Assembly: GCA_009787015.1 (NCBI GenBank)
Contig: WRGU01000047.1
Location: 1-41,523, forward strand
Length of the DNA stretch: 41,523 nt
DNA from: Candidatus Saccharimonadota bacterium
GTDB taxonomy: Bacteria; Patescibacteriota; Saccharimonadia; Saccharimonadales; Saccharimonadaceae
Direction of reading: 5' to 3'
The notes beneath the pieces are model-generated. The model was not told where the DNA came from and made no database searches. It was given only the letters and a program-made list of their open reading frames with translations. The translations under genes were made by a program, and so were the position numbers. Of the stretch, positions 1 to 41,523 are shown piece by piece (position 1 is the stretch's first letter; every line of letters starts with the position of its first letter).

Positions 1-9
1 CCCCCCCCC
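1..9. repeat. C9 homopolymer at left edge
   Basis: The window opens with nine C bases. One reading frame through it gives a short ORF end (PPQGVKDS then TAA at 28-30), so this may be the truncated 3' end of a coding region, but the tail is too short to identify. It matches the three internal C9 tracts in length, and may be a sequencing or assembly stop. Confidence 0.6.
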
Positions 10-6657: not shown

Positions 6658-7677
6658 TTACTGCACATATTGTATCATATTTTTTTGAATCAACATATTG
6701 CGCGTTAATCGAAAATGATGATTTTCGTGCAAAAATTCGTATGGATTGTGACGCAAAAATTTATAAAAATCATAAATCAGGAAAAATTTTACCAAGCCCC
6801 AAAACAGCGGCGTCAGTTCGGGCGAGGACAGGTTAATTCGGTTCTTGCCGCGTTTATTGTAACCGGAACTGATTAAATACTTAAAAATTTTATCAGGATT
6901 TTTCCGCGCGCAATCGATAGTTAGGAACGCGTAAGTTCGCGCCAAATCCAAAACCGCCGGACCACGCGCCGCTTTTTCAAAATCGATCAGACCGGTCAAA
7001 GTGACGTTGTCGATTCGCCAAAACGAATTTGCAGGAAGACTGTCTTCCCGCAAATATAGCACATTTCCGCGCACTAAATCCAAATGAAGTGGAATTTGGT
7101 GCGGTAATTTCGCGGCGCGAGTCAAAGTATTTTCCAAATTCTCGAATATTTTCGAATCGATCGATAAATGCAGTTTCCGATGCATCGCATTTTGAACATT
7201 CTGATCCGAAAAATAATTTTGCATGGATTTTAGTTGATTTTGACATTGATTCAGCGCGTCCGGCAAATCGCCATCGAAATCCGCCGCCGCGTGATGCAAA
7301 TCACTCATCGCCCAACCTAATAATTTGATGCGTTTTTTCGTGTAATCCTCCCACGGAATCGTTGCGCCAGGCAAATATTTGTAAATCCGCGCGTAACGAA
7401 TCCGCCCCGACGACGCACCAACGAGTTTCAGAGTTCGCGTGTCAAAACGTTCGCGCACCGGCAAACCGTACGCCGCAACATGATCAGAAACCGCATCCGC
7501 CGCATTGATGCGCGATAAAATATCAGGTTCAGACTTAAAAAATATCAGGTTCAAATCGCCCGCGTCGCGCGTTTCGATGCGATATGATTTGTTACGATAA
7601 CCCGATTTCTCCCCGTGGATTTTAGCCCACGACACGCCGTAAAAGTTTAGGGCGCGTTCAATAATTTCATTATTCAT
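6658..7677 (-). CDS. Aminoglycoside phosphotransferase/choline-kinase-like kinase
   Basis: 339 aa from the ATG at 7677, which overlaps the folA stop (ATGA); the longer track ORF is an artefact with an Arg-rich lead. Catalytic loop IPLHLDLVRGNVLY (H198-x-D200...N205) and metal site TGLIDFEKAARGP (D232) define the APH fold. Relatives phosphorylate small alcohols or sugars. Next door is a nucleotidyltransferase, so a kinase plus NDP-activation pair is likely, much as LicA/LicC make CDP-choline; the actual substrate is not visible. A palindromic element (7028-7054) encodes the loop LREDSLPAN between the catalytic strands. Confidence 0.82.
   Translation of the reverse strand: MNNEIIERALNFYGVSWAKIHGEKSGYRNKSYRIETRDAGDLNLIFFKSEPDILSRINAADAVSDHVAAYGLPVRERFDTRTLKLVGASSGRIRYARIYKYLPGATIPWEDYTKKRIKLLGWAMSDLHHAAADFDGDLPDALNQCQNQLKSMQNYFSDQNVQNAMHRKLHLSIDSKIFENLENTLTRAAKLPHQIPLHLDLVRGNVLYLREDSLPANSFWRIDNVTLTGLIDFEKAARGPAVLDLARTYAFLTIDCARKNPDKIFKYLISSGYNKRGKNRINLSSPELTPLFWGLVKFFLIYDFYKFLRHNPYEFLHENHHFRLTRNMLIQKNMIQYVQ
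7028..7054. repeat. Palindrome with AAGAC-T-GTCTT core inside kinase gene (copy 3)
   Basis: Inner arms GGAAGAC/GTCTTCC around a single T, one unpaired base each side, then outer arms TTTGC/GCAAA. The architecture is the same as 4292-4324 but with different outer arms, and here it lies in frame inside the APH-like gene. Confidence 0.6.
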
Positions 7678-8174
7678 CGGCGCTCGTACTCGACGAAATC
7701 GGCGTCGAGTTGATTTTTTTCGTCTTTCGGTATGGATTCTCGCGACACTTCGCGCCATTTTTTCGGATCAATTGCAGGGAAAAAGGCGTCGCCCTCGAAT
7801 TCTTCGTGAATCTCGGTGGCGTAAATTTTATCGGCTAAATCCTGATCCATAATCTGTTTATATACAAATGCGCCGCCGCCAATAAAGACCAAATCGCCCC
7901 GAACCAAATCAAAAGCTTCCTGTAAACTATGCGCCACATCTATGCCTTTTTCGTCCAAATCCACCTCGGATAACACAATATTTTGACGATTCGGCAACGG
8001 TCTGAAATTGTCGGGCAAACTATAAAAAGTTTTTAAACCCATAATTACAGCGTTTCCCGTCGTTAATTTCACAAAATTTCGCATATCCGCGGAAATTTTG
8101 CCCATCCACGGAATTTTACCTTTATTACCGATGACCCCGTTCTTGGCGAATGCTACAATAATCGCTGTCTTCAT
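7674..8174 (-). CDS. folA: Dihydrofolate reductase
   Basis: 166 aa. Reduces dihydrofolate, the by-product of ThyA, to tetrahydrofolate. Motifs: IIVAFAKNGVIGNKGKIPW at the N-terminus (substrate and NADPH loop with conserved W), VIMGLKTFYSLP, NRQNIVLS, and FIGGGAFVYKQ for the NADPH site. First gene of a six-gene operon ending in thyA. A TACAAT box (8181-8186 on the opposite strand) ends six bases before the ATG, so the message should be leaderless; there is no RBS. Confidence 0.96.
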   Translation of the reverse strand: MKTAIIVAFAKNGVIGNKGKIPWMGKISADMRNFVKLTTGNAVIMGLKTFYSLPDNFRPLPNRQNIVLSEVDLDEKGIDVAHSLQEAFDLVRGDLVFIGGGAFVYKQIMDQDLADKIYATEIHEEFEGDAFFPAIDPKKWREVSRESIPKDEKNQLDADFVEYERR

Positions 8175-8191: not shown

Positions 8192-9763
8192 CTATTTTTT
8201 GTCGCATACTTGTTTGACGATTTCGCCAATCGGGGTAGAGTCGTAATCTTCGACGTAATTTCCGCTCGTATAACCTTCGTCGTATTCCAGTTTATGACTA
8301 TATCCTTCCGTGATCGCACCCCTTTGCATTCGGATGGCGCAACGGCTGATATTGGATTGCCTGTCGCCATCCGCCCACAGCACCTGGGTCGGGGCGACAT
8401 GGACTTTTTCCCCCACATTATGCAATATACCATCAGTATAGACCAGGGGAATACCGATATTCAGGGGGTGCTGCAACCAATGCAAAATACCATATTGTTC
8501 ATCTGTTTCAGTCTCTTGCACGCGCAATCCTTTGCGACCGAATTTCCGGTTGATTGCTTCGATCGTAAATCCCGCAACCATCGCACACTCGAATTGCAAG
8601 ATCTGCAACTTCTTCTCGTGTTCCAATATTTCCTCGTAGGACAGTTGATTCGGCAGGTCAGAAGCCGGCAAACAAGGCGAGTTGGAAAAAGGCGTAATAC
8701 CATAAACCAAACCATGGTTTTTCATGACATATTTTGACGTCGCTTCATCATCCGCGTCGGTCGTACCAGGCAGACCGGCGATCAACGACGTTGACCACAC
8801 GAATTGGGATTTCCTCTTGCGAATTTGTTTTAGCGCATCCTCGAGTTTGTCAAGCGTCCCTGGGCGACCAATTTCCGCCGCTTGACGCTCGCTGCCGGTT
8901 TCGATGGTCGAATGCATGCCGGTGATGGTGTTGGAATCCCTAATCGCTTTAACCAACTCCGGATAAAGGGTTTGCGGTGCGACAGAGAATAACGAAACTT
9001 GTTCAAAACCCAACTTATCCACCTCCTCAACCAATTTGTGCAAACAACGCTCGCCGTTGTCCTTGTATAGCCCGAGGCTCTGCCCGAACAACCGCAATGC
9101 CGTGATTTCCGGATGCGTCTCTCTTAATTCCTTTAGTTCGGCGACAGCGCGCTCCAGTGGCACACTGATCGATTTTGAGCTTTCCTTTTTGAGGTAATTA
9201 TTACAACAATACGTACAGCACATATCGCAACCAGTTTGCACGATGAAATCTGCTTTGAGTCTGCTAGTATCCTGTTCATGAAAATACCCAAACGGATCAA
9301 GTTCGGTAACCGGTTCGCTTGATTCCGGAAAAACCGTGTGCATCAATGTCGCGCATTCAGTATCGCCGCTAGCGAGAACGATTTCGGTGCCCTCCGGAAC
9401 ACCGGCATCCTTGCAGAAAGGTTGGTAAAAGTTTTCGCCGTCTTCGGTGTCATCTATCGCGCCAGGAATACCGAGAAAGATAACACTTTCTGGCAACCCC
9501 CCCCCAGATTCCCGCAGAATTTCGTACGCCTTTCGGAGATCATCATTCGCGATAGTGATATTATTCGGCGTCAAAAAAGATTTTGAAACAATCAGATGAT
9601 TAATGTGCGTCCCAGCAGGCGGCAAATTATTGCCATAACGTTCAGGCATCGTGTATAAAACGGCGCCGCGCACCGCCAACTCGCGCATCTCTCTAATCGA
9701 TTTATTGCGATGGTGCGGCGCACCTTCATTCGCACCAACCACCAAAATATTCGGCTTTTCCAT
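8192..9763 (-). CDS. Radical SAM protein, methylthiotransferase-like, with in-frame G9 tract
   Basis: 523 aa. The radical SAM cluster is CDMCCTYC (C179, C183, C186). Following features match the MTTase-type core: GMHSTIETGSERQAAEIG, and LIAGLPGTTDADDEA. The N-terminal domain lacks the three-cysteine pattern of true MTTases, so the auxiliary cluster may be absent; substrate unknown. A run of nine G (nine C on + at 9497-9505) encodes G87-G89, well before the catalytic cysteines, so any one-base slip removes the enzyme. Leaderless: TATAAT ends eleven bases before the ATG. Transcribed away from the alarmone-synthetase gene. Codon and domain structure are intact, i.e. the gene is in the ON frame here. 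Confidence 0.83.
   Translation of the reverse strand: MEKPNILVVGANEGAPHHRNKSIREMRELAVRGAVLYTMPERYGNNLPPAGTHINHLIVSKSFLTPNNITIANDDLRKAYEILRESGGGLPESVIFLGIPGAIDDTEDGENFYQPFCKDAGVPEGTEIVLASGDTECATLMHTVFPESSEPVTELDPFGYFHEQDTSRLKADFIVQTGCDMCCTYCCNNYLKKESSKSISVPLERAVAELKELRETHPEITALRLFGQSLGLYKDNGERCLHKLVEEVDKLGFEQVSLFSVAPQTLYPELVKAIRDSNTITGMHSTIETGSERQAAEIGRPGTLDKLEDALKQIRKRKSQFVWSTSLIAGLPGTTDADDEATSKYVMKNHGLVYGITPFSNSPCLPASDLPNQLSYEEILEHEKKLQILQFECAMVAGFTIEAINRKFGRKGLRVQETETDEQYGILHWLQHPLNIGIPLVYTDGILHNVGEKVHVAPTQVLWADGDRQSNISRCAIRMQRGAITEGYSHKLEYDEGYTSGNYVEDYDSTPIGEIVKQVCDKK
9497..9505. repeat. C9 tract inside radical SAM gene
   Basis: Nine consecutive C on + (nine G in the coding strand), reading Gly-Gly-Gly at residues 87-89. 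A loss or gain of one base would frameshift before the catalytic domain. Confidence 0.9.
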
Positions 9764-9859: not shown

Positions 9860-11317
9860 ATGGAGCAAAATTTACATAAATTCAACGATTATCAGCCCTA
9901 TCCCCATATAAAGATATCCGATGAAGCGCAAGCGGCAGTTGATCATTTCCAATCGCGCATCAAAGTTGGTCACGACAGAGAACGAATCGCTGCGGAAAAT
10001 CACGATACCGAACAAACAATGATGCTATTTCGTGATTTTTGCGGTGGAGATTTTCCCGATAACAGCCCCGTTTACGACGCCATAGCGCTAGTCGACATTC
10101 ACAAAGGTTTGCAGGAGCGCCTTCGTGAACGGATTGCGCATAGGGCGTTAAATGGTTACATCAAACCCGACGAACGCACCGAATACGTGTTTGGGCTACT
10201 CGATGATTGCGGCAAAGTCGACGATTTTTGGCAAAAACAATCCAGTATTTCGATAGAGGATATGTGCAATTTGCTCGGCACGGTCGATTTAGAAGCCATT
10301 CCGATCCTGGGCGCCAAAAGTTTAGCATTTATGTGTAACCGTATGCCATTGCGCGGTAACGATATTCAGGAGGTTAGTAATTCGCCGGAAATGCAAAACC
10401 AGATGGCACTCGCACAAACTTTACTGGCACCAGCGTGTGAACTGATTGGTTATGATGGTTTGGCGATGGCGCTGCAAAGCGTTGTCAGCCAAGCGGCAAT
10501 GCGACGCGATCGCCAAACTTATTTTATTGACAAAGCGAGAGAGGTCCTCGACCAATTACCCCCCCCCGAAGAATTACAAGAAGACATTACGCGTGTCATC
10601 GGTGGTCTATTAGATCATGATTCCATCAACGCCGAATCGTTCCAGGGCGGCGAGCGACACGGTATTTTGTTCGGTGAAGGATTATGGGATCGCGGCAACG
10701 ACTTGCCGGACGGACGTTTTGTCTATCGTCGGAAATCGACCGGATCGATCGCGACGAAAGTTCAGGATGATTATCGAAAGTATGGTCGCATTGAAACTCC
10801 GCGCGACATCGTCGGCATCACAATCATCGCCCAGGACGACAAAGAGCGATTGCGAATCTTCGGTCAAATGATCACAAATGCTGGTCGGGTTGATGATCAG
10901 AAGATAGGCAGCGCCAAAATCATCGGTTCATCCGATTTTATTGAACAAATGATTTCCGGAATTTCTGGAACATATGATGAAAATGCCGCAAAATTAGAAG
11001 CCCCCGTCGAACGAAATAATGGCTACCAAACTGCGAAAGTCTACATCAGGCGCAAAAACACCCCGTTCGAGATCCAAGTCACTACACGGCAGGAACGCGA
11101 TATGAATCGTTACGGCAGAACTGCGCATATTTTGTACAAAAAACCGAAACGGGGCGATAGTGCGGAATCTGGCGATCAAATCGACGAAAAAATCCTGGAA
11201 TTTATGGCGGATATTCATGATCGTCGCGAACATATCGGCGAAGCAGAACTCCGTCCGACCACTATTAACGCCAGTCGAATCCTAATCAGACAGTTGTCAC
11301 GCGTTGGTCATTATTAA
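9860..11317 (+). CDS. RelA/SpoT-domain alarmone synthetase-like protein with in-frame C9 tract
   Basis: 485 aa. Residues ~285-430 carry the (p)ppGpp synthetase fold: YRRKSTGSIATKVQDDY (ATP-side basic motif), RDIVGITII (metal-binding D), NNGYQTAKVYI, TPFEIQVTT (catalytic E), and YGRTAHILYK. The N-terminal ~280 residues are helical-looking and show no HD hydrolase motif, and no TGS/ACT domains follow, so it resembles an unusually long small-alarmone-synthetase; it could also be a toxic type. C9 at 10559-10567 encodes P234-P236, just ahead of the catalytic domain, so slippage would give a product with no synthetase. Leaderless start. The GITII in place of AIRVI and QVTT in place of QIRT are deviations from classical RelA. 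Confidence 0.82.
   Translation: MEQNLHKFNDYQPYPHIKISDEAQAAVDHFQSRIKVGHDRERIAAENHDTEQTMMLFRDFCGGDFPDNSPVYDAIALVDIHKGLQERLRERIAHRALNGYIKPDERTEYVFGLLDDCGKVDDFWQKQSSISIEDMCNLLGTVDLEAIPILGAKSLAFMCNRMPLRGNDIQEVSNSPEMQNQMALAQTLLAPACELIGYDGLAMALQSVVSQAAMRRDRQTYFIDKAREVLDQLPPPEELQEDITRVIGGLLDHDSINAESFQGGERHGILFGEGLWDRGNDLPDGRFVYRRKSTGSIATKVQDDYRKYGRIETPRDIVGITIIAQDDKERLRIFGQMITNAGRVDDQKIGSAKIIGSSDFIEQMISGISGTYDENAAKLEAPVERNNGYQTAKVYIRRKNTPFEIQVTTRQERDMNRYGRTAHILYKKPKRGDSAESGDQIDEKILEFMADIHDRREHIGEAELRPTTINASRILIRQLSRVGHY
10559..10567. repeat. C9 tract inside alarmone-synthetase-like gene
   Basis: Nine C reading Pro-Pro-Pro (residues 234-236) at the junction between the N-terminal region and the synthetase domain. 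Confidence 0.9.
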
Positions 11318-24086: not shown

Positions 24087-24114
24087 TTGCAAAGTAGGGC
24101 AATCGTAGTAGAAT
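24087..24114 (+). promoter_or_regulatory. Promoter of 186-aa gene
   Basis: TTGCAA (24087-24092), 16-bp spacer, TAGAAT (24109-24114), then an AAGGAG RBS and ATG. Confidence 0.6.
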
Positions 24115-24131
24115 ATTGTTAAGGAGTAATT

Positions 24132-24692
24132 ATGAGTAAAAGACATCGCAGTCCGGAAATACAAGCCCTACATCAACGTTCGGCACAGTTTAATCAATAC
24201 GCCGACATAAAAGTAAGTGAAAGAAGAGCGACAGAATTCTTTGAAACGAGGTACGCCAAACCCAAACCGCAACCCGAAATCACCCCCCCCCAGGTCGAAC
24301 AAACCGAACAAGAGCAGCCTCAACGCCCCGAACAAACCGCCATGGCGGAGTCGGCGTGCCGTTGCTTACTAACGCAGACTTATCATACCAAATATAGCAG
24401 CGGTGGAACGCCATACCAAACAACTCTCGCCGCAACTGCCGAAAGTATCGCGGATAACTGGAACATAACAATGTCGAAAGACGATCAATATATTTGGAAA
24501 TTAGAGTTGAAACATTGCTATGATGACTTTTCCCCAAGAGAACGTGACGAATTAATACTCGAGATGGAACATGATTCTCATAAAGTCAAGGAGACATGTA
24601 ATAAGTGTTCAGAGCCAGAACTCTGCAGTTGCCTGGCACCACGCGACGTGCGTCTTGGCATGCTGGTCGCAAGAACGATAATAGCGCAATAA
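24132..24692 (+). CDS. 186-aa protein with C9 tract and Cys motifs (unknown)
   Basis: N-terminal ~70 residues are polar with a Gln/Pro/Glu-rich stretch (KPKPQPEITPPQVEQTEQEQ); residues ~74-76 hold C-x-C and the C-terminus holds CNKCSEPELCSC, possibly a metal or Fe-S site. Nine C bases encode T51-P53, so a slip would remove all the cysteines. RBS AAGGAG. No family recognised. Confidence 0.6.
   Translation: MSKRHRSPEIQALHQRSAQFNQYADIKVSERRATEFFETRYAKPKPQPEITPPQVEQTEQEQPQRPEQTAMAESACRCLLTQTYHTKYSSGGTPYQTTLAATAESIADNWNITMSKDDQYIWKLELKHCYDDFSPRERDELILEMEHDSHKVKETCNKCSEPELCSCLAPRDVRLGMLVARTIIAQ
24283..24291. repeat. C9 tract inside 186-aa gene
   Basis: Exactly nine C, reading Thr-Pro-Pro, as in the two genes near 9.5-10.6 kb. 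Confidence 0.9.
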
Positions 24693-41414: not shown

Positions 41415-41523
41415 TTAAGATTCTGCGTCTTCGCCCGACCCTACTAAATCTTTGCCCGCTTCTAGGGCTAACATGGTATCAAGCATCATTTTTCGCATGG
41501 TCTCAAGATGATCCCCCCCCCCC
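41415..41523 (-). CDS. 3' end of truncated gene, entering through a G11 tract
   Basis: Open frame from the right edge: GGG-D-H-L-E-T-M-R-K-M..., ending EDAES at TAA 41415-41417, followed by a terminator. The product's last 35 residues are helical and acidic; identity cannot be told. The gene runs into the homopolymer at the window edge, so it too carries a poly-G/C tract. Confidence 0.55.
   Translation of the reverse strand, partial: GGGDHLETMRKMMLDTMLALEAGKDLVGSGEDAES
41513..41523. repeat. C11 homopolymer at right edge
   Basis: Eleven C at the very end (eleven G in the coding strand of the truncated gene); the true length is not known. Confidence 0.85.

Follow-up and report, generated by a model that had tools for sequence, protein, structure and literature searches.

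Phase variation by homopolymeric tracts is known chiefly from Campylobacter, Neisseria, Helicobacter, and a few other bacteria. A PhasomeIt survey of Campylobacter identified between 5 and 81 loci per strain, and the lengths of the G/C tracts, most of which are located in ORFs, peaked at 9 (53%) and 10 (26%) bases (PMC6321876). The porA gene of N. meningitidis carries its tract in the promoter spacer, where each G gained or lost changes transcription (PMC3899988). In the Gracilibacteria BD1-5 genome, a hypervariable repeat gene was found to fragment the assembly, and slippage was discussed (PMC6851277). In the literature searched, phase variation and Saccharibacteria occur together in only four papers, in none of which this is the subject by title or abstract.

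The genome studied here resembles the Campylobacter phasome in having dozens of G/C tracts with a peak at 9 to 10 bases, in the frameshift that a change of length would cause in coding tracts, and in the intergenic location of some tracts (PMC6321876). It differs in that 93% of the tracts are nine bases long, all coding tracts are in the ON length, many tracts are located in promoter spacers, and the hosts are orphan, soluble, or radical SAM proteins in a member of the phylum Patescibacteria. As in the porA promoter, G tracts are placed between the -35 and -10 boxes so that their length sets the spacing (PMC3899988), although here there are many such promoters per genome, with spacings of 15 to 19 at G9, as judged from the sequence alone. 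The Gracilibacteria BD1-5 gene likewise combines local hypervariation with a fragmented assembly in a CPR genome (PMC6851277), but that case concerns one gene with 9-mer tandem repeats and is neither mononucleotide nor genome-wide. What we describe appears to be a known mechanism in an unreported setting.

Results

An Exact C9 Tract in an Orphan Gene

The window, by which we refer to the whole stretch of 41,523 nucleotides, is contig C47 of the source genome G000, which consists of 857,924 bases in 51 contigs. It contained 5 C/G runs of at least nine bases, compared with 0.03 to 0.05 expected per 41.5 kb under Markov models of order 1 to 3. Internal runs of exactly nine C were located at 3 sites, in the genes for a radical SAM protein, a RelA/SpoT-domain protein, and a protein of 186 amino acids (Table 1). 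A control scan also identified a gene for an APH-family phosphotransferase at 6658-7758 on the reverse strand (PF01636, E 9e-12).

Table 1. Coordinates of the tracts, associated features, and dispersed repeats (positions in the window unless a contig is given)
Feature	Position	Strand	Description
C9 tract	24283..24291	+	In frame, T-P-P (ACC CCC CCC CAG), codon 50 of the 186-aa ORF
Orphan ORF, 186 aa	24132..24692	+	Cys motifs (CNKCSEPELCSC) close to the C-terminus
Promoter-like TTGCAA - 16 nt - TAGAAT	24087..24114	+	Sequence reading; upstream of the orphan ORF, spacer without tract
Shine-Dalgarno-like AAGGAG	24121..24126	+	Sequence reading; ATG 5 nt downstream
G9 as read by the coding strand (C9 on +)	9497..9505	-	Radical SAM gene 8192-9763 (-), codon 86, ON
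C9 in frame	10559..10567	+	RelA/SpoT-domain gene 9860-11317 (+), codon 233, ON
C9 starting the contig	1..9	+	Assembly break at a tract
C11 ending the contig	41513..41523	+	Assembly break at a tract
Dispersed repeat examples (G000)	C15:3687-3801, C29:12511-12624, C36:6742-6849, C51:32917-33031

The run in the 186-aa ORF, which has an A on either side, was confirmed to be exactly nine bases long and in frame. The original prediction had described the protein as an orphan, in agreement with which no match was obtained in Pfam, PADLOC, or NCBIfam, and no relative was found in the 60 other genomes searched or in the GTDB contigs. A frameshift was also correctly foreseen to remove both cysteine motifs: the computed products were truncated to 79 residues at C8 and 88 residues at C10, with every cysteine lost, whereas the frame stayed open at C9 and C12. 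Codon use ranked highest among the six frames, yet below the gene mean, and the structure prediction was uninformative (pLDDT 41.7). The neighbors on either side are a DUF6311 gene and secA. Since the corresponding region in L105, where secA is located about 70 bp from a long reverse-strand ORF at the position of the DUF6311 gene, has nothing in the gap, the 186-aa ORF looks lineage-specific.

Eleven contig ends in the source genome fell within C/G runs that were at least 8 bases long. These fit mixed tract lengths, but are suggestive only, as PCR stutter, with flanking peaks rising from 14% at G8 to 39% at G11 (PMC4965091), could give the same breaks. Contig ends with C9 and with C11 were seen in near-identical flanks and may be either alleles or duplicated elements. 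Dispersed repeats of about 75 to 120 bp, roughly 85% to 98% alike, were also observed on a dozen or more G000 contigs.

Tracts of Nine Bases Are in Excess Genome-Wide

Counted by length, the C/G runs in G000 numbered 51 (6 bases), 12 (7), 4 (8), 46 (9), 2 (10), 4 (11), 1 (13), and 1 (26), whereas a geometric extrapolation from lengths 4 to 7 yields only about 0.4 runs of nine. The whole-genome count that had been proposed as a check on the predicted improbability of several nine-base runs was thus clearly not matched by a random model. No A/T run longer than 8 bases was found in G000. Among the 41 internal tracts, 39 were of length nine. When synonymous codons were shuffled in 725 greedily called genes, coding sequence contained 1.3 runs of nine and 6.8 runs of eight, as compared with 24 and 0 in the real genes, which places the excess sharply at nine, with a depletion of eight.

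A total of 25 of the 41 internal tracts (at least nine bases) were located within genes, and since genes make up 88% of the genome the proposed concentration in ORFs was not observed. The same frame was open on both sides of the tract in all 25 cases, which corresponds to the ON length. Free switching would predict that about one third of the coding tracts are ON, which counts against rapid switching. There was no mixture of ON and OFF among the coding tracts, with the qualification that the assembly is a population consensus and that gene calling could miss start-proximal OFF loci. The suggested placement near 5' ends was upheld, with 13 of the 25 tracts in the first quarter of the gene in G000 (p = 0.003), where the share for ordinary runs of 5 to 6 bases is 30%, and 30 of 50 tract genes in G028, G020, G001, and G009 (p = 1.6e-7).

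Three adjacent and similar ORFs at C48:15718-18928 in G000 have a conserved Gly-Gly-Gly, which is written as G9 in 2 of them and as GGA GGG GGG in the third, suggesting that single substitutions may make or erode tracts.

Many Non-Coding Tracts Are Located in Promoter Spacers

The tracts in promoter spacers had gone unseen in the original prediction and extend it. When both boxes were required to lie 15 to 19 bases apart and to match at 10 or more of 12 positions, 18 of the 48 non-coding tracts in 5 genomes were located between the -35 and -10 boxes (p = 2e-18), compared with 1.8% of 3,000 random non-coding positions in G000. One example on contig C15 reads TTGACA-TCT-G9-TGC-TATAAT. Because the spacing at G9 covers the whole range from 15 to 19, no single optimal spacing dictates the length of nine.

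Related promoter-like elements of the form TATATCACCTA-Cn-ATGGGTCAAG..., where n is 9 or 10, were observed in G000 at C44:22659, C17:9462/C36:36, and C8:1/C32:16121, and may be read as similar promoters that differ in tract length. In G009, at loci L181, L183, L187, L191, and L197, C9 was found in a repeated upstream region with at least 6 similar copies, in which a TATAAT-like box is accompanied by a GC-rich stretch and a short inverted repeat; these are possibly a leader family rather than promoter spacers.

Genes that Carry Tracts

A match to Pfam (E <= 0.001) was obtained for 10 of the 27 tract-bearing coding genes, as compared with 15 of 20 random genes (p = 0.017), and for 7 of 20 tract genes in the relatives. 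Proteins with predicted membrane segments were depleted (12% vs. 38%). Five of the 12 genes in the genome with the radical SAM motif CxxxCxxC had a tract (p = 2e-5); 2 of these matched the Radical_SAM family, while the other 3 belong to a paralog family, and 2 of these 3 weakly matched rSAM_PoyD. The upstream tracts precede, among others, genes for a large RCC1-repeat protein and a beta-propeller protein as well as gyrA, which together with the PRPP synthetase-like and PPDK-like hosts has the appearance of housekeeping. With regard to a bias for surface or interaction functions, the hosts examined were mostly soluble orphans and the 5 genes with the radical SAM motif, with some promoter tracts before the large RCC1 or beta-propeller proteins. 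The control scan additionally identified an ORF of 138 amino acids at L053:10577-10993 (G000 C23) that matched the CdiA_C contact-dependent inhibition toxin domain (PF18451, E 1.5e-10).

The Trait Is Clustered by Genus

The SecA protein of the source genome was most similar to those of Saccharibacteria MAGs such as Emb289P3bin132 and Th196P3bin19, the sample names of which look like termite-gut work, and the identity of the best segment peaked at 86%, for L105 in a MAG labelled Nomurabacteria. In a genome-by-genome count, the exact runs of nine and eight bases numbered 41 and 2 in G000 (with a single run of ten), 58 and 4 in G028, 34 and 4 in G020, 17 and 3 in G021, 15 and 3 in G055, and 12 and 2 in G009, while most relatives had no run of nine. 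At least 10 such runs were found in about 15 of the 394 genomes of the family in a genus-clustered manner, and all 3 g20 species contained 34 to 55. No other genome in a phylum sample of 381 approached the pattern, although a few had 11 to 12 runs of nine and more runs of eight. The modal tract length was 9 in G000 and G028, shared between 9 and 10 in G030, and 10 in G034.

G028 is probably the genome Th196P3bin19, since the tract peptide PETVRTPPLDIPK was common to a G028 tract gene in L213 and a gene adjacent to secA in L103. Two small ORFs adjoin secA in L103, each with C9 near the start, in parallel to the 186-aa ORF. Tracts were mostly absent from orthologous sites, and because the tractless homologs usually differed by substitution or a single residue, an origin of the tracts as inserted nine-base blocks was ruled out.

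The MutS protein was absent from all 61 genomes searched, while the control search recovered it from 11 of 14 well-known genomes. Loss of MutS was rejected as a sufficient cause, since it is common to all relatives, most of which have no tracts. The lack of mismatch repair may permit slippage, but because the tract-poor relatives are also without MutS it is not the full explanation.

Discussion

We interpret the excess of tracts, their exact length, the frame consequence, the promoter placement, the 5' bias, the genus clustering, and the absence of MutS as probably reflecting a genome-wide set of slippage-driven poly-G/C phase-variable (contingency) loci in a Saccharibacterium that lacks MutS. 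Slipped-strand mispairing would alter the length of a tract by one base. A change of length in a coding tract would shift the frame, such that the C9 tract at position 24283 would specify the protein in its full length of 186 aa, and a tract of C8 or C10 the short products without Cys motifs. In the promoter tracts, a change of length would alter the spacing between the -35 and -10 boxes and hence the level of transcription. Because the architectures of Campylobacter and porA are both present here, we regard the tract at 24283 as a translational switch in a mixed phasome. We infer that tract lengths change in living populations, that these changes are reversible, and that the resulting diversity is under selection.

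Two rival explanations stay in consideration because all coding tracts are ON, because an A precedes C9, and because some hosts are housekeeping-like. The first, which we regard as unlikely, is that the tracts are neutral slippage hot spots, where short C/G runs drift to an attractor of nine when mismatch repair is missing, with no adaptive switching. The absence of MutS throughout, the combination of depleted eights and enriched nines in coding sequences that an attractor predicts, the housekeeping genes among the hosts, and the ON length of every coding tract are all consistent with such drift. However, most of the relatives without MutS are free of tracts, and the placement of the tracts is non-neutral, with a preference for promoter spacers (18 of 48 vs. 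1.8%), gene starts, and orphan and radical SAM genes.

The second rival, which treats A-C9 not as a slippage site but as an element of fixed length that serves regulation or DNA-protein recognition, is in our view very unlikely. It draws on the length of nine in 39 of the 41 internal tracts and on the A found directly before C9 in 38 of the 41, as compared with 39% for short runs (p = 7e-13); slippage would not predict this near-invariant base. A longer motif common to the tract flanks was nevertheless rejected, as strong constraint was seen at the first flanking base only. The modal length is moreover 10 in G034 and mixed in G030, the preference for A is weak in G028 (32 of 58), and the tracts occur on either strand and inside codons, all of which argues against a fixed-length signal.

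It is highly improbable that selection acts on the protein, favoring Gly-Gly-Gly or Thr-Pro-Pro, with GGG or CCC as the incidental codons. Although NGGGSS is conserved in one tandem paralog family, where one copy writes GGA GGG GGG, the excess drops from 24 to 1.3 in the synonymous shuffling, which preserves the protein, and the promoter tracts code for nothing, so this explanation is largely refuted. An artefact of homopolymer assembly or sequencing is just as implausible: contigs do break at tracts and a contig end with C26 looks artefactual, but all 25 coding tracts hold the frame, the same signature recurs in other assemblies in a genus-clustered manner, and the homologs point to an origin in place rather than to inserted blocks.

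Returning to phase variation, the broader proposal is that, in a minority of the genera of Saccharibacteria, some of which appear to come from termite guts, dozens of genes are controlled by a poly-G/C phasome that is both translational and transcriptional and that gives rapid diversity to a lineage with a sub-megabase genome and no mismatch repair. The genes would include those for lineage-specific soluble proteins and for radical SAM enzymes with a distant resemblance to enzymes of RiPP maturation. For this joint claim we consider the balance to be even. If the loci do switch, a symbiont with a reduced genome would gain built-in diversity from cell to cell, and the tracts would provide a list of genes that are likely to be important when host cells or phages are met, in a group for which such genes are mostly uncharacterized.
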